Shown here piece by piece: positions 22,253-43,931 of a stretch of DNA of 43,931 nt. The stretch's first letter is position 1, and the number at the start of each line of letters is the position of its first letter. Where the stretch lies: positions 1 to 43,931 of the IMG/VR virus record IMGVR_UViG_3300048837_000836; one strand, 5' to 3'. The position numbers and the translations under genes are program-made. The notes under the pieces are model-generated. The model had not been told where the DNA came from. It was given only the letters and a program-made list of their open reading frames with translations, and ran no database searches. The stretch comes from a virus.

Positions 22253-22623
22253 TTATCTGCTTTTTTATCTGCTCGCCTTGCTGCGAATGTCACTACTGGA
22301 ATAGTAGAATCTTGGCTTTGCGTGTCTGTCGTTATTTTATCAGACCAACCGAGAATGTTTTTTAGCGCAAAAATAAGGACAGCTGTATTGCCCTCATCAA
22401 TTTTCTGCCATGTTTTTCTTCTTAGACTAATCTTGCCTTTTGCCGCCTTTTGTCGCCATAGATCCGCAAAACCCTTTTTTTTCTCAGTTACGCATCGCCT
22501 TTCAATTGTATCCTCAGAGACATTAAAAAAACTTGCTATTTCTTCTAGCGTACAATGCATAGCGCAAAGTTTATCAAATTGATTCCAATCAATGGGAATT
22601 TTAGGTCTACCAATTTTAGACAT
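22249..22623 (-). CDS. terS: Terminase small subunit-like protein
   Basis: 124 residues from the ATG at 22623 (GGAG four bases upstream). The N-terminal half is a helix-turn-helix: CTLEEIASFFNVSEDTIERRCVTEKKKGFADLWRQK, the standard small-terminase DNA-binding opening. The second half (SLRRKTWQKIDEGNTAVLIFALKNILGWSDK) is the family's helical oligomer part with the NILGW motif. It recognises the packaging site and loads the large subunit. Directly upstream of terL. Confidence 0.8.
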   Translation of the reverse strand: MSKIGRPKIPIDWNQFDKLCAMHCTLEEIASFFNVSEDTIERRCVTEKKKGFADLWRQKAAKGKISLRRKTWQKIDEGNTAVLIFALKNILGWSDKITTDTQSQDSTIPVVTFAARRADKKADK

Positions 22624-23341
22624 ATGACTCCTCAATTACATCATTTCTATTTGTATTTTGATTTTTTGATTGGAGCGTATCGGTCAGACTTGCACTGCCT
22701 TCTGCTGCTTGGAAAGCAACCACTTCACTATCAAAGCTTGATACGCGTTTTGGATAGGGCTTTGCCAATTTCAATATCTTTGTTTTTATATCATCTGTCA
22801 ATGGCATTAAATATATATGTTTTTTAGTAGGTTTCCTAGTTTTTATATTGTTTTTTTGTGCAAATTTAAAACCTGCTTGCCCAAATTTAGCACCTACACT
22901 TCTATGGTGTGTCCATTTACCATTGATATAATATTCAAGTGTTCCACCAATTTGAGATAATCCAATATATATCCAATTTGTAGCCTGATATATTCCACCA
23001 TGATGGTTTTGCCTTGGATCTGCAAAACTTACAATAATCTTTAATCCTTCACATTTTTTTTTCAAATATTTTATCGCTATACTTAAAATTTTAGATACAT
23101 GATTTTTATGCTTGTTCAAAGCAATTCTAGTTAATTCACATCCTTCTATAGTTGTTAATCCATATGGGGTTAACAAATTATTGCAAGCACCCCTAGAAAA
23201 CAATACCACCCCTATAAACTTATTTTCCTCCCAAACGCCTATTTTAACAATTTTCCCTGCTGGCATACATTTGCTATAATGCCAATTTTCACAAGCATAC
23301 TTTGCAGCTTCATGCGTTGCCCAATCGATCTTAAGAGTCAT
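22616..23341 (-). CDS. Mom-like DNA modification protein
   Basis: 241 residues from ATG 23341, which overlaps the ParB-like stop (ATGA). The protein has the layout of phage Mu Mom relatives: ENWHYSKCMPAGK (residues 18-30), IGVWEENKFIGVVLFSRGACNNLL, CELTRIALNKHKNHVSKILSIAI, a core IIVSFADPRQNHHGGIYQATNW (103-124) and GKWTHHRS. Mom is a GNAT-fold enzyme that turns adenines into N6-(carbamoylmethyl)adenine, shielding phage DNA from restriction. I see no com-like regulator. The C-terminal tail (from about 200) is longer and less conserved. Being next to terminase fits modification before packaging. Confidence 0.75.
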   Translation of the reverse strand: MTLKIDWATHEAAKYACENWHYSKCMPAGKIVKIGVWEENKFIGVVLFSRGACNNLLTPYGLTTIEGCELTRIALNKHKNHVSKILSIAIKYLKKKCEGLKIIVSFADPRQNHHGGIYQATNWIYIGLSQIGGTLEYYINGKWTHHRSVGAKFGQAGFKFAQKNNIKTRKPTKKHIYLMPLTDDIKTKILKLAKPYPKRVSSFDSEVVAFQAAEGSASLTDTLQSKNQNTNRNDVIEESYV

Positions 23342-23808
23342 ATTTCTAACCCACAATGTGGACATATTTTTTTCTGTTTTTCATCAAGTTTCCCTTGATC
23401 ATCTTCTGTACCTGGATCGAAGTCTTTATCATCTAAACTAAAATCACAAAAACCAATATCCCCGATATCAAAGTCCTGCTTGTCAAGCCAATCAAGCTGC
23501 TCTTTAAGGATATCATCGTCCCACTCTGCAAGCTCGGAAGTTTTGTTGTCAGCCAGCGCAAAGGCCATTTTACCTAGCTCATCAAGCTCAGTTACCACAG
23601 CATTGATATGCGTCCAGCCGAGTTGTTTTGCAGCTTCCAGAGTGCCATTACCAGCTATCACAACATTTTTTGAATCGATCACAATAGGTTTTTGTTGCTT
23701 GAATTTAGCGAGCGAGCCCTTGATTGCCTTTAAATTTTTATCGCTGTGCTTCCGAGCGTTGTTCGGATCAGCTGCAAGCTTTGATATTTCTACCTTAATA
23801 ACGTTCAT
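23338..23808 (-). CDS. ParB-like nuclease-domain protein with zinc ribbon end
   Basis: 156 residues; ATG at 23808 has GAGG six bases upstream. Residues 1-90 are a ParB/Srx-type domain: VEISKLAADPNNARKHSDKNLKAIKGSLAKFKQQKPIVIDSKNVVIAGNGTLEAAKQLGW with the conserved GNGT/R motif. Such proteins in phages often precede DNA methylases or other modification genes. The C-terminus ends CPHCGLEI, half a zinc ribbon. The gene overlaps the Mom-like gene, so the two likely work together. First gene of the late minus-strand operon. Confidence 0.75.
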   Translation of the reverse strand: MNVIKVEISKLAADPNNARKHSDKNLKAIKGSLAKFKQQKPIVIDSKNVVIAGNGTLEAAKQLGWTHINAVVTELDELGKMAFALADNKTSELAEWDDDILKEQLDWLDKQDFDIGDIGFCDFSLDDKDFDPGTEDDQGKLDEKQKKICPHCGLEI

Positions 23809-26188: not shown

Positions 26189-27220
26189 ATGATTAAGACC
26201 TATAAATATCGAATCAAAGACGCATCAGCAGCTAAAAAGCTAAAGGCAGCGGCGAGAGCCGTAAACTTCGTGTGGAACTACTGCAACGAAATATCTATCT
26301 ATGCGATCAAAAATAGATCAAAATTCCTGTCTGGATTCGACCTATCAAATCTGACAAAAGGAAGCTCAAAAGAGCTATTCCTTCACTCGCAGACGGTTCA
26401 GGCCATTTGTGAGGAATATGCAACCAGAAGACAAAAAGCCAAGAAAATTAAACTTAGGTGGAGAGGAAAGCGATCCCTTGGGTGGATACCTTTCAAGAAA
26501 ACAGGAATTAAAATCGTTGGCGATAGCGTGACATACTCTGGAAATACGTTCAGACTTTTTCTATCAAGAGATATCCCTACTACAATCAAGACGGGATCTT
26601 TCAGCCAAGATGCAAGAGGACGGTGGTATTTCAATGTTGTGTGTGAAGTGGAGGAACATATTCGCTCGGCTGCTGGTGAAGTAGGGATTGATCTTGGTCT
26701 GAAGGATCTAGCAAATCTTTCAAATGGCCAAAAATTTAAGGCCAATAAATACTATCGTAAATACCAGCGCATCCTTGCCTTGTCGCAAAAAGATGGTAAG
26801 AAAAAGAGAGTGAAGGCAATCCACGCAAAGATTGCAAATAGCAGAAAAGATGAGATTCAAAAGATGAGTCATGAAGTAACAAGAGACTTCAGCCTCATCT
26901 GTGTGGGCGATGTATCGTCAGTCAAACTTGCAAAAACAAAGCTCGCCAAAAGCATCTATGATGCCTCTTGGTCGCAGCTCAAGTCCTGCCTCGAATATAA
27001 ATCGATTGCGAGAGGCGGGATGTTAGTCATAGTGAATGAACACATGACAACCCAAACCTGTTCCAACTGTCTGTCTACAGGCGTTGGCGCACCGAAAGGA
27101 GCGAAAGGGCTAGGGATAAGAGAGTGGGTGTGCAGCAGTTGCGGATCGACACACGACCGTGACACAAATGCGGCACTAAACATTCTCCGATTGGGAAGAC
27201 AATCGCTGGGTCTAAAGTGA
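26189..27220 (+). CDS. tnpB: TnpB RNA-guided endonuclease (IS605 OrfB)
   Basis: 343 residues after GGGAG. N-terminal YKYRIKDASAAKKLKAAARAVNFVWNYCNE, RuvC-I GIDLGLKDL (Asp168), zinc finger CSNC (291-294) ... CSSC (315-318), and RuvC-III DRDTNAALNIL (Asp325). At RuvC-II the usual Glu is absent: the segment reads ICVGDVSSVKL. A Glu sits later, in IVNEHMTTQTCSNC (Glu284), as in a TnpB group with a shifted acidic residue. Active TnpB cuts DNA guided by an RNA from the element's right end, next to a TTAAC-like motif. Confidence 0.85.
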   Translation: MIKTYKYRIKDASAAKKLKAAARAVNFVWNYCNEISIYAIKNRSKFLSGFDLSNLTKGSSKELFLHSQTVQAICEEYATRRQKAKKIKLRWRGKRSLGWIPFKKTGIKIVGDSVTYSGNTFRLFLSRDIPTTIKTGSFSQDARGRWYFNVVCEVEEHIRSAAGEVGIDLGLKDLANLSNGQKFKANKYYRKYQRILALSQKDGKKKRVKAIHAKIANSRKDEIQKMSHEVTRDFSLICVGDVSSVKLAKTKLAKSIYDASWSQLKSCLEYKSIARGGMLVIVNEHMTTQTCSNCLSTGVGAPKGAKGLGIREWVCSSCGSTHDRDTNAALNILRLGRQSLGLK

Positions 27221-27348: not shown

Positions 27349-27388
27349 ATGATGACCTATCATTAATTTTAATGGGAGGTCATTCATG
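27349..27388 (+). promoter_or_regulatory. Inverted repeat hiding the GH5 ribosome binding site
   Basis: Left arm ATGATGACCT (27349-27358) pairs with AGGTCATTCAT (27377-27387) through a bulged T. The right arm covers the GGGAGG binding site and the start ATG. A weak promoter-like pair, TTGAAC (27325-27330) and AATGAT (27348-27353), would start RNA near 27360, after the left arm. Transcripts from further upstream would contain both arms. Confidence 0.5.
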
Positions 27389-28840
27389 CGCTTTATTTTG
27401 CTGTCTTTACTACTTTTATCATCAACATTATTCGGTAACACCCTATACGATGGAGAGTCCAAACTTTTCGGGGGATCTGTTAAATGGGATAACAACGGAT
27501 CGATCCTGACTCAATCTCAGGAGATCCCCTTCTCCCCTCCAAATCATCTCAGGGTGTCTTTAGTAAATGTAAACTACTGGGGAGCGGCAGGATATGTCAT
27601 TGAAAAATGGAAGCCGATCAACTTCATTACCTACCACACTCTTAACCTTGTCATGAGAGCCGACAATAATGTGACGGTTGGCGTCCAGCTATTTGATGCT
27701 GGGAACAAAAGTAGCCCTGCTGTTAAAGTCGATCTGTCTTTCAGTCACCAGCTTATCAGCATCCCAATTTCGATGTTTAGCGATATTGATTTGACAAAAG
27801 TCACTGCAATTATCTTTTCTGTCTCGACACAAAAAGCTGAAAAGAAATATTTAGTTGATATCGATAACATTACAATTGAGCGTGAGATCCTGCCCCCGGA
27901 TGATGAGGATGATATCGATCCCCCGAACCAAGGTGTCATGAACACCAAAGGCCGCTCCCTGTATGACTCATGCAACAAGAAGGTTGTCCTGCGTGGTGTC
28001 AATCATATGACGTGTTACACGGATTGGGTAGGGACACCGAGGGACGGTGAGCCGATGTTCACTGAGATTGCTAAGACAGGGGCAAACTCGGTCAGGATCG
28101 TCTGGACTTACTCAGAGAATACCACCCCTGCGGAGCTAGATAGGGCGATCACCAATGCCGCTAAAAACCAGCTTATCCCTATGGTTGAGATATTGGATCA
28201 AACATGCGAATGGTCGAGAGCTGCTTTCGACAAGGTTTTGTCGTGGTGGTTACAGCCTGACATAGTGAAGGTGATGAAAAAGCATGAGAAGTATGTACTT
28301 CTAAACTTTGCTAATGAAATGGGAAATGGCGATACGACTCTTGAAAATTACAAATCAGAGTACAAGCGAGTCATTGAAAAGATGAGGGGAGCAGGGTTAA
28401 GAAGCACTATCGTTATCGATGCCCCTGGCTGTGGACAGAATGAAACAATCATGCTTGATGCTGCAAACTATTTAATCGAGTCTGATCCTCTTAAAAATGT
28501 AATGATGAGTTTGCACCTGTGGTGGGTTCCCCAAGACAAGGACCGTATTACAAACCTGATGACTCGTGCACACAAATTAAACATCCCTTTAGTGATCGGT
28601 GAATTTGCCGGTGTTGCTGTTGATTGTAAGACGCCTACTTTTTACTCACATCTTTTAAAAATTGCTCAAGATACTGAAACCGGCTGGATGCCATGGAGTT
28701 GGGATAAATCAAATGGGTGTCAAGCGCATAGCATGACTAAAGACGATACCTATTCGGGTCTGTTCGGATACGGCAAAGATGTTGCAATTGATGACCCCAA
28801 TTCAATCAAAAATACCAGCGTCCAATCCACATGTTTTTAG
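27386..28840 (+). CDS. Secreted GH5 glycoside hydrolase (mannanase/cellulase-like)
   Basis: 484 residues. Sec signal MRFILLSLLLLSSTLFG, a beta-sandwich N-terminal domain (about 20-165; YDGESKLFGGSVKWDNNGS...VDIDNITIE, like CBM11/CIA30-type sugar-binding jelly rolls), acidic Pro linker PPDDEDDIDPP (170-180), then a GH5 barrel. Acid/base Glu311 in NFANEMGNG, nucleophile Glu406 in VIGEFAG, plus RGVNHMTCYTDW and MSLHLWW. The layout is closest to GH5_8-type beta-mannanases, but cellulase cannot be excluded. Exported by the host. Tail overlaps the convergent thermonuclease by 39 bases. A sugar-degrading cargo gene is unusual for a phage of this type. Confidence 0.85.
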   Translation: MRFILLSLLLLSSTLFGNTLYDGESKLFGGSVKWDNNGSILTQSQEIPFSPPNHLRVSLVNVNYWGAAGYVIEKWKPINFITYHTLNLVMRADNNVTVGVQLFDAGNKSSPAVKVDLSFSHQLISIPISMFSDIDLTKVTAIIFSVSTQKAEKKYLVDIDNITIEREILPPDDEDDIDPPNQGVMNTKGRSLYDSCNKKVVLRGVNHMTCYTDWVGTPRDGEPMFTEIAKTGANSVRIVWTYSENTTPAELDRAITNAAKNQLIPMVEILDQTCEWSRAAFDKVLSWWLQPDIVKVMKKHEKYVLLNFANEMGNGDTTLENYKSEYKRVIEKMRGAGLRSTIVIDAPGCGQNETIMLDAANYLIESDPLKNVMMSLHLWWVPQDKDRITNLMTRAHKLNIPLVIGEFAGVAVDCKTPTFYSHLLKIAQDTETGWMPWSWDKSNGCQAHSMTKDDTYSGLFGYGKDVAIDDPNSIKNTSVQSTCF

Positions 28841-29146
28841 GTATTCGACCGCAAGTCTTTGCTCTAAAAGCGTCTCAGCAAAATTTTTGTTATTGATCCA
28901 AAGATCACATAAGCAGCGTCCAAAAGAGTCATAATGATAAAAATCAATTATGACTTTTTTATCAAGCAGCTTTTTGATTGCGTAGTTTTTGGCGTCAATT
29001 CCATCTTGATTCTTATGATCCATCTCAGGACAGTTGATGCCAAAGAGCCTGATTCTAATTTTTATCGTCAAATTAAAATCGAGGTCCACGATGCAATCAT
29101 AGGTATCGCCGTCAATAACATTTGTTATCGTGCCGTTATGGAGCAT
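28802..29146 (-). CDS. Thermonuclease (SNase-like)
   Basis: 114 residues. ATG 29146 chosen; the next upstream in-frame start lies deep inside the neighbouring gene. SNase core: NGTITNVIDGDTYDCIVDLDFNLTIKIRIRLFGINCPEMDHKNQDG...AKNYAIKKLLDKKVIIDFYHYDSFGRCLCDLWI. It has the catalytic Arg (IRIRLFGINCPE) and Asp (IDGDTY) set and the final Arg in SFGRCL. No signal peptide is visible, so it is cytoplasmic or needs another route; it may degrade host DNA. Overlaps the end of the zinc protease gene by 11 bases. Confidence 0.85.
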   Translation of the reverse strand: MLHNGTITNVIDGDTYDCIVDLDFNLTIKIRIRLFGINCPEMDHKNQDGIDAKNYAIKKLLDKKVIIDFYHYDSFGRCLCDLWINNKNFAETLLEQRLAVEYLKTCGLDAGIFD

Positions 29147-29897
29147 ACCAGCACCGAGGTCTTGCACATGTTGCTTTTGCATTTTTTGGGATCACTTTAT
29201 CATTCCACTCTTTATCACATACCGCACCTGCGAGGTAGGTATCAAGGCGACACTGGGCCGCTGGATGCTCCTGCTTTGTTTTTCTAACCACGGTTGGATC
29301 AAAAGTATCATATGAGGGCATGGGCTCATTATTTAATGTTGCAAGTAGTGTTGCGAGTGATAGTCCCGCTTTTAATGACCTCGCGCATGTTTTTTGCTCA
29401 TCTTCTGTTTTCAATACTTCGCAAAAGTAAGGTATCTCGGTTTCATCTGCTGAGTATTTTGAAAGCACTTTTCTTGCGCATACATGAGTAGCGTAATAAT
29501 CAGATTGACCTTCGTAAGAGGCCCACCCTGCATTAGGAAAGCCCCCGAGGTGATGACCAATCTCATGACAGATCACCATGCGAAACCCATCTAGTGTGAC
29601 TTCAGGCCGTCTTGCAAGTCCACCGAACATGTTGACATGATATTCCGATCCTGACCTGCTTGCATAAGCGTTGACTGTTGAATCATCCCAATTTCCTGAG
29701 AGGACAAACCAGCCGCCAAAACCTCTAATGATCGGTGAGTAAAGTTGTCTCATTTCATCGATGACAGCGTAAAATTCTGCCTCGGTGATATTCGACATAA
29801 ATTTATTGTCCTGTTTCCACAAGTCGTTTTCCGGGAGTGACGCAAATGAATGAGATGAGATTAGCAATGCAATGATTGCAAAAAGAATCTTTTTCAT
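29136..29897 (-). CDS. Secreted zinc metalloprotease (HExxH)
   Basis: 253 residues. Signal MKKILFAIIALLISSHSFAS. Active-site helix ICHEIGHHLGG (His111, Glu112, His115) with a likely third ligand in the following YEGQSDYYA segment (about 128-136). Eight or more Cys (VCARK, YFCEV, KTCARS, QCRLD, VCDKEW, TCARP, RCWY) suggest disulfides in the mature protein. Gluzincin-like family not named. Secreted into periplasm or medium. It overlaps the thermonuclease gene and follows the papain-like gene in one run. RBS GGGG lies inside a hairpin (next entries). Confidence 0.8.
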   Translation of the reverse strand: MKKILFAIIALLISSHSFASLPENDLWKQDNKFMSNITEAEFYAVIDEMRQLYSPIIRGFGGWFVLSGNWDDSTVNAYASRSGSEYHVNMFGGLARRPEVTLDGFRMVICHEIGHHLGGFPNAGWASYEGQSDYYATHVCARKVLSKYSADETEIPYFCEVLKTEDEQKTCARSLKAGLSLATLLATLNNEPMPSYDTFDPTVVRKTKQEHPAAQCRLDTYLAGAVCDKEWNDKVIPKNAKATCARPRCWYAP

Positions 29898-29902
29898 AAA
29901 AA

Positions 29903-29939
29903 CCCCGCTATAAGTTGTTATTCACAAATTATAGCAGGG
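29903..29939 (-). promoter_or_regulatory. Promoter embedded in an inverted repeat before the metalloprotease
   Basis: On the minus strand CCCTGCTATAA (29939-29929) pairs with TTATAGCGGGG (29913-29903), one mismatch, followed by TTTTT and the ATG. The RBS GGGG is in the right arm. The left arm also contains TGCTATAAT, an extended -10 (29936-29928). RNA from this promoter would start after the left arm and stay unmasked; read-through RNA would fold, and the T run could end transcription. Confidence 0.55.
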
Positions 29940-29957
29940 CGCATGGAGGATTACCTA

Positions 29958-31145
29958 TTATTTTTTATCGGCAGCCAAGACTTTTTCTTTCACGCCTCTG
30001 ATATTCTTAGAGACGTTGACTGTCGTAGAAGCTTTTGCTGTACCGCACTTGTTTGTTGCATACAGCGTAAGGGTTTTAGTAATTGCTGGCCTAAAGTCAA
30101 TCATCGATACTTCGGGTTTGCCGCCATTGTCGAATGGTGGGCTTGCTGTCCAGTAGTAAGATGTGTCTTTTCTTGGCTGCATACCAATTCTTACTGTCTG
30201 TCCCGATCTAATCCAGATTGAAGGTCCGAAGCCAGTTGATGCAACTGGCTTTGGTTTGCAATCCGGATCTGGCTTAGGATCAGGGTTTGGATTGGGATCT
30301 GGATCAGGAGTTGGAGTATCGTCGAAAACGACGTAGTTCGCCCACTCTCCTACTCCGTTAGCATTCCACCTGATTTTCATGTACCCCGACTCTCCCCAGC
30401 TTCCCCACGAGTTCTTCAATATCCAGTATTGCCCTGCATCAGACCAGCCCACAAGGTTCACAGCGTGATTGAGTTGGCGTGATCCTGAGTCTTGGAATAC
30501 TCCTCCCGTATATCTTGAAAAAGCATCGTCGGCAGCCACTCCCACACTTACAATTCCGTAGCGATATATAGCGGCTTTTATCTCATCAATTGATGGTTTT
30601 TCACCGCCCGGTGTGTACGACCATTGTTTAATTCTGAGTTGATGATTGAGTCCTGACTTGCATGGTTCATCACTTGCACTATACGGCCATGCGGATCCTG
30701 CAACACCCCCAAAAGGACTCATGTGGCGGTTGTAGTCGAAAAATCCACCGTTGCACGTCCACTCCCCCGGTTTTGTACACGAAAGGATATGCTGTTCGCT
30801 GGTATCATACTCTTTCCCGGTTTGATATTTGAATGCGTCCTGCACAGTGGCGGACATGGAAAATGCCCAGCAACTTCCGCAACTTAACTGGTTCTCAGGT
30901 GCTTTATATCCACCTGCTTTTACCCGAGCATCAAACTCAGCAGGGAGATCACCACGAAGTCCATCTCTTGCAGATTTTACGTTGGTCGGATTGAAGTCTT
31001 TTGGAACAACAAGACCTGTTGAATAAATTTGCCCGTTCGCACCCAAGAATGATACGGGCTGTTCTTTTTTCTCATTTGTTGTTGAGCACGATAAACTCAT
31101 GACAAGCGGCAAAAATGCTAAAAATAGTTTTCTGTACCAATTCAT
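29958..31145 (-). CDS. Secreted papain-like cysteine protease (C1A), lipoprotein-like
   Basis: 395 residues. Signal MNWYRKLFLAFLPLVMSLSC, with Cys20 in a lipobox-like site (L at -2, so not perfect). Catalytic domain from about 68: Gln86 and Cys92 in NQLSCGSCWAFS, His227 in QLNHAVNLVGW, Asn245 in ILKNSWGSWGESGYMKIRW, the full C1A set. Asp/Pro/Asn linker PDPDPNPNPDPKPDPDCK (about 280-297), then an Ig-like beta domain to the end. Made as a precursor or directly active; no clear pro-region. Rare in phages. May act on host or prey proteins outside the cell. Confidence 0.88.
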   Translation of the reverse strand: MNWYRKLFLAFLPLVMSLSCSTTNEKKEQPVSFLGANGQIYSTGLVVPKDFNPTNVKSARDGLRGDLPAEFDARVKAGGYKAPENQLSCGSCWAFSMSATVQDAFKYQTGKEYDTSEQHILSCTKPGEWTCNGGFFDYNRHMSPFGGVAGSAWPYSASDEPCKSGLNHQLRIKQWSYTPGGEKPSIDEIKAAIYRYGIVSVGVAADDAFSRYTGGVFQDSGSRQLNHAVNLVGWSDAGQYWILKNSWGSWGESGYMKIRWNANGVGEWANYVVFDDTPTPDPDPNPNPDPKPDPDCKPKPVASTGFGPSIWIRSGQTVRIGMQPRKDTSYYWTASPPFDNGGKPEVSMIDFRPAITKTLTLYATNKCGTAKASTTVNVSKNIRGVKEKVLAADKK

Positions 31146-31150
31146 AAAAT

Positions 31151-31187
31151 CCCCTTTTCGTTAAATTTAACTAAGGGCATTGTATCA
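31151..31187 (-). promoter_or_regulatory. Promoter-in-hairpin before the papain-like gene
   Basis: Minus strand: TGATACAAT, an extended -10 (31187-31179), then CCCTT (31177-31173), the palindrome GTTAAATTTAAC (31171-31160) and AAAAGGGG (31158-31151), which is the RBS. CCCTT and AAGGG pair. The promoter would start RNA at about 31172, leaving the left arm out, as at the metalloprotease gene. Confidence 0.5.
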
Positions 31188-31616
31188 TCTAAGAGCTGAC
31201 AGCTCATTCAAATTGAAGTTGGGACATGTTTTTTTTCGGTCAAAATGGTTATGAGGATAAACATTTTCTTTAGTGATCCTAAAGCGATCCATCAGGCTTT
31301 TGATTAAATCATTTGCAGCTGCGAATTGAATTTTTGTAAATTCATGCCTTCCCGATAAACATATTCCGATTGATTTGAGGTTTTGCCCGATGCAATGAGC
31401 ACCGATCCTATAAAGAGGCCTCCCGATTTCTATTTGCCCTGTTTTTCGGATGAAGTAATGATAGCCGACATCTGAGAATTTCCGCTCATGGTGCCATTGC
31501 CTGATTGTGTCGATGTTGTCATGTTGTGGGAGATCGCTATCAGAACAGTGAAGAATCAGCTTATCAATTATTTTGAGATCTCTCATTGTCTCTGATGTTT
31601 TACAATCAAACGCCAT
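31185..31616 (-). CDS. Endolysin, T7 lysozyme-like N-acetylmuramoyl-L-alanine amidase
   Basis: 143 residues with SD AAAGGAT. Zinc site: His in LILHCSDSDLP (about 23), His in YRIGAHCIGQN, His in PHNHFD and the Cys in KKTCPNFN. Also RQWHHERKFSDVGYHYFIRKTGQIEIGRP, the family core. It cuts the amide bond between MurNAc and the peptide. No signal or wall-binding domain, so a holin is needed for release. Stop lies close to the promoter of the papain-like gene. Compact single-domain form fits a Gram-negative host. Confidence 0.88.
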   Translation of the reverse strand: MAFDCKTSETMRDLKIIDKLILHCSDSDLPQHDNIDTIRQWHHERKFSDVGYHYFIRKTGQIEIGRPLYRIGAHCIGQNLKSIGICLSGRHEFTKIQFAAANDLIKSLMDRFRITKENVYPHNHFDRKKTCPNFNLNELSALR

Positions 31617-31620
31617 AATA

Positions 31621-32103
31621 CTATCCTTTTATGAATGTCCACTCTCGATAGACTTTTGACGTGAGCTGTAACAATCCCCAAGAGGCTATGTGGTATGCAT
31701 CAATCAGCCCGTCTTTGCTTTTACAAATTTTTGAAGTGGGATTAGCTTTTTTGAATGCAAGCCAAGAGCGCACTTTTGGATTATCGCCCTCGCATCCCCT
31801 GTGTGCCAGCTTTTGCCAATTTTTAGGTTCAACCTCATGGTAGTTTCGATTGTAGAGCCATGCTCGAATTAACCCACTGTTCGCCCCAAACTTGAAACAC
31901 ACAGAGCTTCCCCAGACTGAGCGGCCACGAACTTTTTCGATCCAAACCGGAACTTTTAGGTCAGAGAAGATCCTGTTCAATTTGTCGTAGTCGATCAATT
32001 TGTCATGCCTGTATGGAATGGCACAGTAAATGGCCTGCATGGTGTCAGTGTCGAGTTGCACGACATAGCCTGTGCTGCCGGGATCTATGCCTATAATCCT
32101 AAT
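31621..32103 (-). CDS. RuvC-like Holliday junction resolvase with apparent ATT start
   Basis: 160 residues if started at the ATT at 32103-32101, which has AAAAAAGGAG with a six-base gap. That gives MRIIGIDPGSTGYVV..., with catalytic Asp7 in GIDPG. The first standard start (GTG 32061) would remove that Asp, and no ATG, GTG or TTG lies in frame between the previous stop and the ATT. Other acidic residues: Glu56 in VWIEKV and Asp131/Asp135 in KDGLIDAYHIASWGL. It would resolve branched DNA before packaging. The start lies two bases after the HNH gene's stop. Confidence 0.75.
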   Translation of the reverse strand: MRIIGIDPGSTGYVVQLDTDTMQAIYCAIPYRHDKLIDYDKLNRIFSDLKVPVWIEKVRGRSVWGSSVCFKFGANSGLIRAWLYNRNYHEVEPKNWQKLAHRGCEGDNPKVRSWLAFKKANPTSKICKSKDGLIDAYHIASWGLLQLTSKVYREWTFIKG

Positions 32104-32104
32104 A

Positions 32105-32710
32105 TTATTCTCCTTTTTTAATGAGTAATTCTATTGTTTTTTCAGGAGATCCCGTAGTTTTTCTTATGAATTTATATTTTGACCTTTTGATTCCAAGTTT
32201 TTCGCATATTTGATTTATAGTTAAATACTCGTCAAAAAAATCATATTTTTTTGCATGAAGTTTTTTATGCTCGGATGCATTAGTTAAAAGTAAATTTTCT
32301 ATTCTGTTATCATCTTTTATACCATTGATGTGATGAACATGCTCATTTAATTTTAATTTTCTTCCTATATGTTTTTCCATCACATAACGATGTTCTGATA
32401 AATGTCTTTTTTTGCATTTTTCATGACCTTTTACCCATATTTCGCTATACCCACGATGACTAACCTTATATTTTTTTTTGCTATAACCTCCATTTTTTTG
32501 ACTATGGATTGCAAAACACGGTCTGGAGCAATATTTAGCTCCTCCTTTTCTTTGTTCACATTTAAAAGATTTAAATTCTTTGCCACAATTCAGGCAATTT
32601 TTAGTTTCTGATCGACAATTTTTTTGGTTATGAAAACAATTAAGAGAACAATATTTGGATTCAATTCTCCCAAAATATTCGATACCGCAGTAGGAACAAA
32701 TTTTTTTCAT
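32105..32710 (-). CDS. HNH endonuclease with zinc fingers and HTH tail
   Basis: 201 residues from the ATG at 32710 (AGGAG upstream). Three Cys-rich units near the N-terminus (CSYCG...CSLNC, CLNCGKEF...C, CSRPC), a core NEHVHHINGIKDDNRIENLLLTNASEHKKLH at about 123-152, and a helix-turn-helix LTINQICEKLGIKRSKYKF at 163-181. Homing-type endonuclease; related in design to the one next to terL. Inserted just before the resolvase start. AT-rich compared with the resolvase. Confidence 0.8.
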   Translation of the reverse strand: MKKICSYCGIEYFGRIESKYCSLNCFHNQKNCRSETKNCLNCGKEFKSFKCEQRKGGAKYCSRPCFAIHSQKNGGYSKKKYKVSHRGYSEIWVKGHEKCKKRHLSEHRYVMEKHIGRKLKLNEHVHHINGIKDDNRIENLLLTNASEHKKLHAKKYDFFDEYLTINQICEKLGIKRSKYKFIRKTTGSPEKTIELLIKKGE

Positions 32711-32764
32711 AAAACTCCTGGCTGTTGCTAATTTCATTTTGGGAGTTTTTGCGAAGATTACAAT

Positions 32765-32792
32765 AAAAAAAGGCCGCATGATGACTGCGACC
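32765..32792 (-). terminator. Intrinsic terminator, minus strand
   Basis: GGTCGCA / GTCATCA / TGCGGCC (seven pairs, one G-T) followed by seven T on the minus strand. It stands 55 bases before the HNH gene ATG, so it would stop transcripts coming from further upstream. Confidence 0.7.
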
Positions 32793-32830
32793 TTCTCTAA
32801 CAACGAAACGACTATATCCTGTCAACACTG

Positions 32831-32853
32831 AAAAAAAAGGCTCTTACGAGCCT
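32831..32853 (-). terminator. Intrinsic terminator, minus strand
   Basis: Minus strand AGGCTC / GTAA / GAGCCT then eight T or so. Perfect six-pair stem with a GTAA tetraloop. Second of three in the same direction within about 260 bases. Just upstream on the minus strand lies a GCGGG...CCCGC pairing (32858-32894 region), possibly part of a structured RNA. Confidence 0.75.
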
Positions 32854-33000: not shown

Positions 33001-33027
33001 AAAAAAAAAGGCCGAATTACTTCAGCC
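33001..33027 (-). terminator. Intrinsic terminator, minus strand
   Basis: Minus strand GGCTGAA / GTAA / TTCGGCC (seven pairs, one G-T) and then nine T. The TAA of the short minus-strand reading frame (33017) falls in its loop, which suggests this frame is a real gene that ends here. Confidence 0.75.
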
Positions 33028-34822: not shown

Positions 34823-35842
34823 ATGAAAATAGGATTGGGCCTCATTGTCAAGAATGAGGAAATAGACATTGTGACATGCTTAAACTCTTTTTTGCCATTA
34901 GTCGACTGTGTGTGTCTTGTTGATACTGGATCAACAGACCGAACGTTGGAGATCGCTTATAAGATCATTGGAGCATCTGGAAAACCGAACAGGGTTATCA
35001 CTTTTATCGATGCGAACGATTCTGAAGGAAGGCTGTGCGATTTTTCAGCAGCCCGGAATGTCTACATCCGAGAACTCGAGTCTTTAGACATGGACTACAT
35101 TCTTTCAATCGATGCTGATGATACCTTCATAGGTCCCGCAGATCTTCGGTCCTACCTGTTAGACCACTCTGACATTGACGTTCATGGCCTTAAGTATTTT
35201 TTAAATGATGAGGTTTCGATCAATACCTATCGCCTTTGGAAAACCGGGTTTGGGATCAGATACGAGGGCAGGGTGCACGAGTGCATTACAATCCCTTGGG
35301 ATCGGGCAAAAGTGAGCGAAGGCGCTATAACGATCAAACACAATCCAACCTCCCATGAGGGCCAAGAGCACTCTGGACAGCGCAACATGCGCATACTCCG
35401 AAAAGAGATCTACCCTTCTTTCAGGGCAATGTTTTACTGGGCCAATGAGAACGTGGATGCTGGGAATTATGAGGAGGCTGTCAAATGGTATCTCGAATAT
35501 ATCAGGCGGTCAAAAGCAGGTGAAAAGCCTTGGATGATTGAGCTTGCCCATTGTTACTTCAGGGGAGCCCGTTGGTTGCACCACTTGAAGCGAACCAATG
35601 AGGCCGAGCGACTCTGTCTTGAGCTCCTCTCTTGGGACTCCAGCTGGTCAGAGGCTTGGTGCGAATTGGCTTATATCAATCGACTTCGAGGCGACTTTGA
35701 GAAGATGAAATTTTTCGCAAAAAAGGCGCTGGATAACAAATATGTCCCGAGGCTTTTCAGTGAGCCTGATAAATACACCACGACTCCAGCAAACATGCTC
35801 ATGATTGCAGCGATTCATGAAAAAATTGGTAAAAAAGAGTAG
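34823..35842 (+). CDS. GT2 glycosyltransferase with TPR-like C-terminus
   Basis: 339 residues after AAGGAT. GT2 core LIVKNEEIDIVTCLNSFLPLVDCVCLVDTGSTDRTLEIAYKIIG with the DxD-type SIDADDTF (about residue 96). Then HGLKYFLNDEVSINTYRLWKTGFGIRYEGRVHECI. The C-terminal third (about 215-330) has repeating helical units AGNYEEAVKWYLEYIRRSKAG and so on, TPR-like. Substrate not known. Position between initiator partners and the recombinase is unusual; it may be a late addition and act on host surface glycans. Confidence 0.8.
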   Translation: MKIGLGLIVKNEEIDIVTCLNSFLPLVDCVCLVDTGSTDRTLEIAYKIIGASGKPNRVITFIDANDSEGRLCDFSAARNVYIRELESLDMDYILSIDADDTFIGPADLRSYLLDHSDIDVHGLKYFLNDEVSINTYRLWKTGFGIRYEGRVHECITIPWDRAKVSEGAITIKHNPTSHEGQEHSGQRNMRILRKEIYPSFRAMFYWANENVDAGNYEEAVKWYLEYIRRSKAGEKPWMIELAHCYFRGARWLHHLKRTNEAERLCLELLSWDSSWSEAWCELAYINRLRGDFEKMKFFAKKALDNKYVPRLFSEPDKYTTTPANMLMIAAIHEKIGKKE

Positions 35843-38433: not shown

Positions 38434-38640
38434 TTAAAATCTCTCCTTCTTCAATAGCTCGTTAATAAAAGCGGTGTTGACCGCAAGGTTTTTATCTATG
38501 TCAGCCAGCTTGAAATTAATGGACTCTATTTTTTTCATAACGTTCTGAAAGCATTTAAAAAAGAATCCCGACACCGCACCAATTCCCGCTAATGCGCTAC
38601 CGCATATTGTTACGAGTTCGTGGAATGTAATATCAATCAT
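38434..38640 (-). CDS. Small membrane protein with coiled-coil tail (holin or i-spanin-like)
   Basis: 68 residues with SD GAGGGGATG. One membrane span near residues 8-28 (LVTICGSALAGIGAVSGFFF) and a helical charged tail (NVMKKIESINFKLADIDKNL). This N-in/TM/coil layout fits class III holins or i-spanin-type proteins. No endolysin is adjacent, but the amidase lies within the same genome. Name not firm. Confidence 0.5.
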   Translation of the reverse strand: MIDITFHELVTICGSALAGIGAVSGFFFKCFQNVMKKIESINFKLADIDKNLAVNTAFINELLKKERF

Positions 38641-38842: not shown

Positions 38843-39655
38843 TTACTCCTTCTGCTTCATGTACTCGATATAAGCTTGCAACTGTTCGGCTTCCGATAAC
38901 TGCTTAGTTTGAGATACTAAGTGCCTGACTTTTGATCGAGTCACCAAAGCATGCTTGATACCTAATTTTTGTAGTTCGTCGGAATACACGTTATCAGAAT
39001 ACCAGAAATTCACGGTCTGACAAAGCTTCATCCCTTTTTCGTAGAAAATAGATCGTCTAGCGACAAGGCACCAACCACACACTTCGGCACCGATCCTGTA
39101 ACCTTCAATCATGTCTACATCGGGTATTCCACCGTACACCCGGCTATGCCACTCCCATTGATCATTCCACGGAGAAAAAGACTCCATGTCCTTGCGCATG
39201 TTATGAGCGATCACAATCTCCTGCATCCAACCCGGCTCAAAAATCAAATCATTGTTGGCAAAGACTACCCATTTGTTTAAACTCGCAATTAACCCCAGAT
39301 TAAGAGCCCGGTTATAACAAAAAACGTCATTACCGTAACGAATAGTTTTTTCCTGACCGCACTCTTTAATCTCGGGGCCTGACTCCACGACAATGACATT
39401 AAATTTTATTTTCTTTTCTGACGCTCTTAAACTATCAATGCAATTTTTCAAAAGTAGGAAATGTTTTTCGTCTTCTGTCTTTGAGACAATAATGACGTCT
39501 ACTGTTATTTTTGTTATCAAGAATTTCTCTATTTTCCCCCTGTCAGGATACCAAGTTTGATCCGTTGGAACTTTCATCAAATCATCACCGCTTGTCTGCA
39601 TCCGCTGTAACACCCTTCTATTGTTTTCTCGAATTATTTTTGATGTATCCTGCAC
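38843..39655 (-). CDS. Glycosyltransferase, GT2-like
   Basis: 270 residues from GTG 39655, which has AAGAGG six bases upstream. An upstream TTG (39712) is possible but has no binding site. Rossmann core: VDVIIVSKTEDEKHFLLLKNCIDSLRASEKKIKFNVIVVESGP, then VFCYNRALNLGLIASLNKWVVFANNDLIFEPGWMQEI with NND as the acidic motif. Then a C-terminal part with SRVRHLVS. It lies between holin candidates and fibre genes, so it may alter fibres or host glycans. Third glycosyltransferase of the genome. Confidence 0.75.
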   Translation of the reverse strand: MQDTSKIIRENNRRVLQRMQTSGDDLMKVPTDQTWYPDRGKIEKFLITKITVDVIIVSKTEDEKHFLLLKNCIDSLRASEKKIKFNVIVVESGPEIKECGQEKTIRYGNDVFCYNRALNLGLIASLNKWVVFANNDLIFEPGWMQEIVIAHNMRKDMESFSPWNDQWEWHSRVYGGIPDVDMIEGYRIGAEVCGWCLVARRSIFYEKGMKLCQTVNFWYSDNVYSDELQKLGIKHALVTRSKVRHLVSQTKQLSEAEQLQAYIEYMKQKE

Positions 39656-39698
39656 AAATAACCTCTTATTTGCTATGATTGATTTAGCAAATCTGTTA

Positions 39699-39818
39699 TT
39701 ATTGCCGTTCAAAATTGAGCTTGACTATTTCCGTCACAATACCACGTTTAATCTCGTCACACAACACGTCTATATCTGCAAAATAAACACTTCTAATCGG
39801 AAATAGATCAAGCCACAA
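39699..39818 (-). CDS. Possible small protein, TTG start (39 aa)
   Basis: TTG at 39818 immediately follows the TAA of the fibre gene upstream. The frame reads LWLDLFPIRSVYFADI then DVLCDEIKRGIVTEIVKLNFERQ, protein-like, ending at 39699. Binding site weak (TGGA). Could be noise. It fits the gap between two real genes. Confidence 0.3.
   Translation of the reverse strand: MWLDLFPIRSVYFADIDVLCDEIKRGIVTEIVKLNFERQ

Positions 39819-41516: not shown

Positions 41517-43931
<2,415 letters not shown>

Follow-up and report, generated by a model that had tools for sequence, protein, structure and literature searches.

Two proteases predicted to be exported are linked to the endolysin gene of a phage whose hosts are probably predatory relatives of Bdellovibrio

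Genes of the locus

The window, by which we mean the whole stretch of DNA analyzed, is IMG/VR record IMGVR_UViG_3300048837_000836, positions 1-43,931. A block of five genes lies on its minus strand. In order, these encode a RuvC-like Holliday junction resolvase (31621-32061; phrog_1770, 4.9e-8), an N-acetylmuramoyl-L-alanine amidase that is likely the endolysin (31185-31616; Pfam Amidase_2, 2.4e-16; phrog_822, lysis, 8e-37), a papain-like protease of 395 aa, here called C1 (29958-31145; Pfam Peptidase_C1, 2.1e-42), a secreted zinc metalloprotease of 253 aa, here called MET (29136-29897), and a staphylococcal-type nuclease, SNase (28802-29182; Pfam SNase, 5.2e-11, and alignment). The successive gaps are of 4, 39 and 60 bases, and the end of the MET gene then overlaps the start of the SNase gene by 47 bases. 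Neither the amidase nor SNase has a signal peptide. A pattern scan found no terminator-like stem within the block on the minus strand and placed such stems upstream of it on that strand, at 32838-32853 and 33010-33027, as pattern matches rather than functional evidence. The first gene past the stem encodes an HNH endonuclease (32105-32803, minus strand; Pfam HNH_3, 2.2e-10) and is not conserved in the block. Matches in a promoter scan were no more numerous than in shuffled sequence.

Convergent with the block, on the plus strand and beside a TnpB-like gene, is a gene for a secreted GH5 beta-mannanase-like enzyme of 484 aa (27386-28840; Pfam Cellulase/GH5, 5.5e-15), which scores 56 bits against the GH5 profile, with a cut-off of 23.5. 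Its best solved relatives are beta-mannanases (2whl, 7.8e-30, and 1bqc), to whose catalytic glutamates E311 and E406 align. The catalytic domain and both glutamates are shared with the bacterial beta-mannanases 2whl, 1bqc and 1wky; unlike these, the window enzyme carries a CBM11/CBM30-like N-terminal module (27386-27880, plus strand, including the signal peptide). This module is predicted to be a beta-sandwich near CBM11, CBM30 and CBM29, and it is a separate gene in the relatives G383 and G003. In G383, a close sister phage, only the module remains. In G003 the catalytic part is 69% identical, and the module and catalytic part lie in different frames beside a run of nine A (L005:4943-6372), so that a disrupted gene, a misassembly or two genuine genes are all possible. 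The TnpB-like gene, of the IS605 OrfB type (26189-27220), is followed directly by a GC-rich, hairpin-like sequence, and no counterpart was found in G383.

An earlier note on this DNA had described C1, MET and GH5 as a single clustered cargo of three signal-peptide enzymes, near a nuclease and the endolysin. The three open reading frames are real, with the coordinates given here, and all have export signals, that of C1 being of the lipoprotein type rather than an ordinary one. C1 and MET are indeed adjacent, and the conserved minus-strand block that holds them also includes the nuclease and the endolysin. GH5 stands outside it, and a single three-gene cargo was rejected because GH5 is on the other strand and the sister phage G383 has no full gene. 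Judging from these comparisons, we regard GH5 as an accessory gene and not as part of the conserved unit. It was also considered as a common host gene, and this was rejected, since only 2 of 369 Bdellovibrionota genomes contain a match.

Properties of the two proteases

C1 belongs to peptidase family C1A by its profile score (146 bits against a Pfam cut-off of 20.7), and it aligns with cathepsins and papains. Q86, C92, H227 and N245 are invariant in an alignment of 12 phage C1 proteins; with the alignments of GH5 described above, this bears out the earlier note's statement that the catalytic residues are intact. Identity is 61% to the C1 protein of G002 and 60% to that of G003. The Gln, Cys, His and Asn residues and the strong Pfam match (2e-42) are held in common with cathepsin L and papain. 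Unlike these, the window protein has a lipoprotein signal, a short TGLxVP prosegment in place of a full propeptide and, behind the protease part, a proline-rich linker and an extra C-terminal domain. The signal sequence (31086-31145, minus strand) ends at Cys20, which is invariant among the block phages. Canonical lipoboxes occur in relatives, whose sequences at this site are LTSC, ATSC, FTGC and MFGC; that of the window (SLSC) is not canonical, which weakens the prediction for this phage. C1 is nevertheless a predicted lipoprotein, and in a six-frame, home-made lipobox scan of the window no other ORF was convincing as a lipoprotein.

An alignment scan of genomes revealed no relative of C1, and a whole-genome search returned C1 proteins of distant kinship encoded on chromosomes, among them one whose prosegment, TGLxxP, is similar. 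Among 27 distant C1 loci that were scanned, a few adjoin lysis-type enzymes, namely a GH24 lysozyme (L018, 4e-36), M15-type peptidases (L042 and L040) and an Amidase_2 protein (L044). Most of the 27 have no recognized lysin within two genes, so the label of lysis protein does not extend to phage C1 proteases in general. In distant phages, C1 genes repeatedly have beside them a small protein with a single hydrophobic segment, a possible holin or partner (L018:9105-9344, L033:3750-3935, L041:239-433, L044:8802-9023 and L042:5825-6049).

MET contains the motifs HEIGH, EGQSDY and QCRLDT. HExGH is present in all 54 members of a broad alignment, in which EG.xDY and QCRxD are also conserved. The earlier note had listed HEIGHH among the intact catalytic residues; the second histidine is kept in only 42 of the 54, and the sister phages have HEIGHL. 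Because this residue varies, it is unlikely to be a metal ligand, and a metzincin reading of HEIGHHLGG was rejected. A likelier third ligand is E129 or D133 of EGQxDY, both of which are invariant. With the M48 or ZMPSTE24-type gluzincins MET shares HExxH, a downstream Glu and a weak profile score; unlike them, it reaches no Pfam cut-off (17.9 bits for the window protein against M48, where 20.3 are required), and its predicted fold (pLDDT 91) has no significant match in the PDB, ZMPSTE24 appearing at E 0.2 and TM 0.29. Membership in M48 was rejected on these two grounds. The M48 profile matches 23 of the 54 relatives at E <= 0.01, and no Pfam model lies reliably above threshold for the family.

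A motif scan of the genome collection placed nearly all MET loci, among the matches listed, in Bdellovibrionota; phmmer confirmed all but two of the loci listed, a few of which were from other Proteobacteria or Myxococcota. The genes are often in tandem, with as many as five copies among the matches listed (L055-L172; for example L122:182-4695 and L110:2474-6302). MET belongs to an unnamed metalloprotease family centered on Bdellovibrionota. A quick tree with long branches groups six phage MET proteins in a single clade (support 97), and the bacterial group beside it includes Oligoflexia and Silvanigrellales. In G383 the gene is duplicated (L210:1122-3092), and its second copy resembles that of G378 most closely, a likeness suggestive of recombination between these phages. 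In G003 the protein is shortened and HQIGH replaces HExGH (L005:9238-9816). Some other phages have MET by itself, and in one group it lies close behind the major capsid gene and away from an amidase (L212:5005-5838, L218:5994-6830 and L219:4154-5017). The earlier note had proposed a search for homologues in a host genome; the MET family is found in Bdellovibrionota and GH5 in only the two genomes mentioned above. That note had also called the combination of enzymes uncommon in phages, and this agrees with a search of 50,697 deposited phage records, which yielded no match to C1 or MET and one distant match to GH5.

The host and the recurrence of the block

G001 (L207, L208) is 100% identical to the window, circularly permuted, and represents the same phage. 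It contains an extra 685 bp of collagen-like tail-fibre repeat, absent between the ends of the window, from which we infer a genome of about 44.6 kb, circular or permuted. In the virion region 24 genes are homologous to and colinear with those of the Bdellovibrio phage phi1422 (NC_019525, lytic, 45 kb). Its terminase is the top-ranked relative of the window's terminase among deposited phages (45% identity over 96%); those of Nitratiruptor phages score slightly higher, but over a shorter stretch. TerL, portal, capsid, sheath and baseplate are shared with phi1422 and, unlike the window, phi1422 lacks the amidase, C1, MET, SNase and GH5 genes. The colinearity with phi1422 and the MET family centered on Bdellovibrionota together make a Bdellovibrionota host, of whichever genus, well supported, and this host is probably a predatory bacterium related to Bdellovibrio. 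The same evidence gives good support to the earlier suggestion that the host lives on other cells. A common prophage of Bdellovibrionota was rejected, because the terminase matches 1 of 369 genomes. The window also contains a Mom-like DNA modification gene (22616-23365; phrog_1384, 2.4e-59) that was not found in G383 and has a relative in L021, three similar genes in tandem with matches to tail-fibre profiles (266-2435), and two glycosyltransferase-like genes (34823-35842 and 38843-39712), each kept in G383.

Scans of IMG/VR and synteny searches found the block in eight distinct genomes, counting the window and G001 as one. The full order, RuvC, amidase, C1, MET and SNase, is present in the window and G001, G383, G002, G376 and G378. 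In G377 SNase is displaced about 0.8 kb further on, G379 has the block without MET, and G003 has C1, MET and SNase side by side but its amidase in a different place. The amidase gene precedes C1 by 10-45 bp in seven of the eight (39 bp in the window). All eight keep C1 and SNase, in the same order and with intact active sites at 45-60% identity. The members of the block share ancestry, and these recurrences are therefore not independent of one another.

These data bear on the possibility that the genes are linked morons with no joint function, exchangeable accessory genes from predator genomes that have settled in a permissive spot after the endolysin. The duplication of MET in G383, its loss from G379, its degradation in G003 and the reduction of GH5 to its N-terminal module in G383 would fit such a history, and modular exchange is evident. 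However, the retention of C1 and SNase just described and the grouping of the phage MET proteins in one clade imply that the block genes are old and maintained, and we consider it unlikely that they are linked morons with no joint function.

None of the window's genes for TerL, portal, sheath and capsid is matched at 1e-5 in G002, G376 or G378, although the block is. The block therefore moves separately from the virion genes. This argues against virion-associated or entry enzymes that would cut through the envelope of the prey or the predator as the phage enters. Such enzymes might be suspected from the position of MET beside the major capsid gene in some phages and from a weak resemblance of C1 to a tail-fibre profile, which comes through the proline-rich linker only. 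But co-inheritance with virion genes is not observed: the block is found beside unrelated virion genes and is absent from phi1422 despite homologous virion genes, and the signal sequences, with the lipid signal of C1, indicate that the proteins are exported from the cell and not assembled into particles. A role in the virion or in entry is thus very improbable, and the earlier statement that none of the enzymes is a virion protein is supported, since no relative shows C1, MET or GH5 as a virion component.

The position of the proteases relative to the amidase is also relevant to a digestive role, in which the proteases and the mannanase would be secreted during infection to keep digesting prey or matrix polymers and so feed phage replication in the predator, the site behind the endolysin being merely a convenient late transcription unit. 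The export signals on C1, MET and GH5, the derivation of MET from a family expanded in predators and often in tandem, its solitary occurrence in other phages, and the CBM-like module of GH5, which suits a glycan target, are all compatible with digestion. On the other hand, the adjacency of C1 and the amidase persists across unrelated virion modules, C1 is predicted to be lipid-anchored and not free, SNase has no export signal and GH5 is not conserved with the block. A digestive cargo is possible but, in our judgment, distinctly the less likely account. The term "cargo" used in the earlier note is weakened by the fixed order that binds both proteases to the amidase. Its statement that none of the enzymes is a lysis protein by type is likewise weakened, by this linkage and by the distant C1 genes beside a lysozyme, M15 peptidases and an amidase.

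A possible lysis and exit module

The presence of the proteases directly behind the endolysin in otherwise different viruses suggests a role in release rather than loose cargo. We therefore favor, with a probability of about 0.5 and from sequence evidence, the interpretation that the block is an enlarged lysis or exit module, whose exported proteases would help to breach the predator envelope, the surrounding prey shell, or both. As in the lambda S-R-Rz/Rz1-type cassette of Gram-negative phages, a lipoprotein gene comes immediately after the endolysin gene, in the same orientation. Here, unlike in that cassette, the predicted lipoprotein is a papain of 395 aa whose active site is complete, the genes behind it encode a secreted zinc protease and a nuclease, and there is no identified spanin pair and no confidently identified holin.

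Few phage genes encode lipoproteins, and those that do are usually a sign of spanins (PMC6139136). C1 resembles a spanin in its predicted lipidation and its place next to the endolysin. Spanins, however, have an inner-membrane partner or a C-terminal membrane segment, and a small helical or proline-rich ectodomain. C1 was not classified as one, being a globular protease that ends in no membrane segment and has no inner-membrane partner next to it. The home-made lipobox scan found no spanin in the window, and a spanin hidden in the missing 685 bp was rejected, since that stretch is the tail-fibre repeat. In one survey, about 13% of phages had no recognizable spanin (PMC6139136). Phi1422 is tabled without lysis genes (PMC3391216). 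At 42946-43435 of that genome (L229), gp71 and gp72 are annotated as hypothetical; gp71 has a membrane segment and a helix, and gp72, if begun at a start further upstream, is a 117-aa lipoprotein, so that the two could be a candidate spanin pair. Comparison of phi1422 with the window suggests that lysis systems may have been swapped on one virion backbone.

Several observations count against an exit module. The holin is a candidate only (38434-38640, minus strand), proposed from one membrane segment and a helix and lying 6 kb from the endolysin. The lipobox of the window's C1 is non-canonical. Four relatives have a second, unexplained lipoprotein; a gene common to G383, G002, G376, G377 and G379 has no counterpart in the window, and its product in G383 and G002 is a lipoprotein some 215 aa long. 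Finally, as described above, MET is absent from G379, degraded in G003 and alone near capsid genes elsewhere.

If the block is an exit module, it would be transcribed as a single unit late in infection. C1 and MET would be exported by the Sec route prior to lysis, C1 becoming lipid-anchored in the envelope. The holin would then free the amidase, and the proteases would weaken proteins of the predator envelope and, once released, those of the prey-derived shell, the bdelloplast. SNase would act inside the cell or on DNA set free, and GH5 with its CBM-like module would be an optional extra against glycan of the host, prey or matrix. C1 may take the outer-membrane role usually filled by spanins. 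The stronger proposal, that in predator phages an envelope-anchored papain and a secreted zinc protease replace spanins, so that progeny can cross both the predator outer membrane and the dead prey shell, is at present speculative and, in our judgment, unlikely.

Bdellovibrio replicates in an osmotically stable, dead prey cell, the wall of which is digested before exit (PMC4876506). A phage that lyses the predator there would meet an additional barrier, and may need to escape from a cell lying inside another, dead cell. Our literature search found no papers on phage escape from a periplasmic predator inside its prey, and none that join lysis cassette, cysteine protease, endolysin, lipoprotein and phage. 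As far as we have searched, a conserved association of an endolysin with a papain of lipoprotein type and a zinc protease has not been described, its individual parts being of known kinds. How the outer membrane is opened in phages that lack spanins is likewise an open question (PMC6139136). For both problems the block supplies named genes with intact active sites, and it draws attention to a metalloprotease family that is expanded in Bdellovibrionota and has no name, no family model over threshold and no solved fold.
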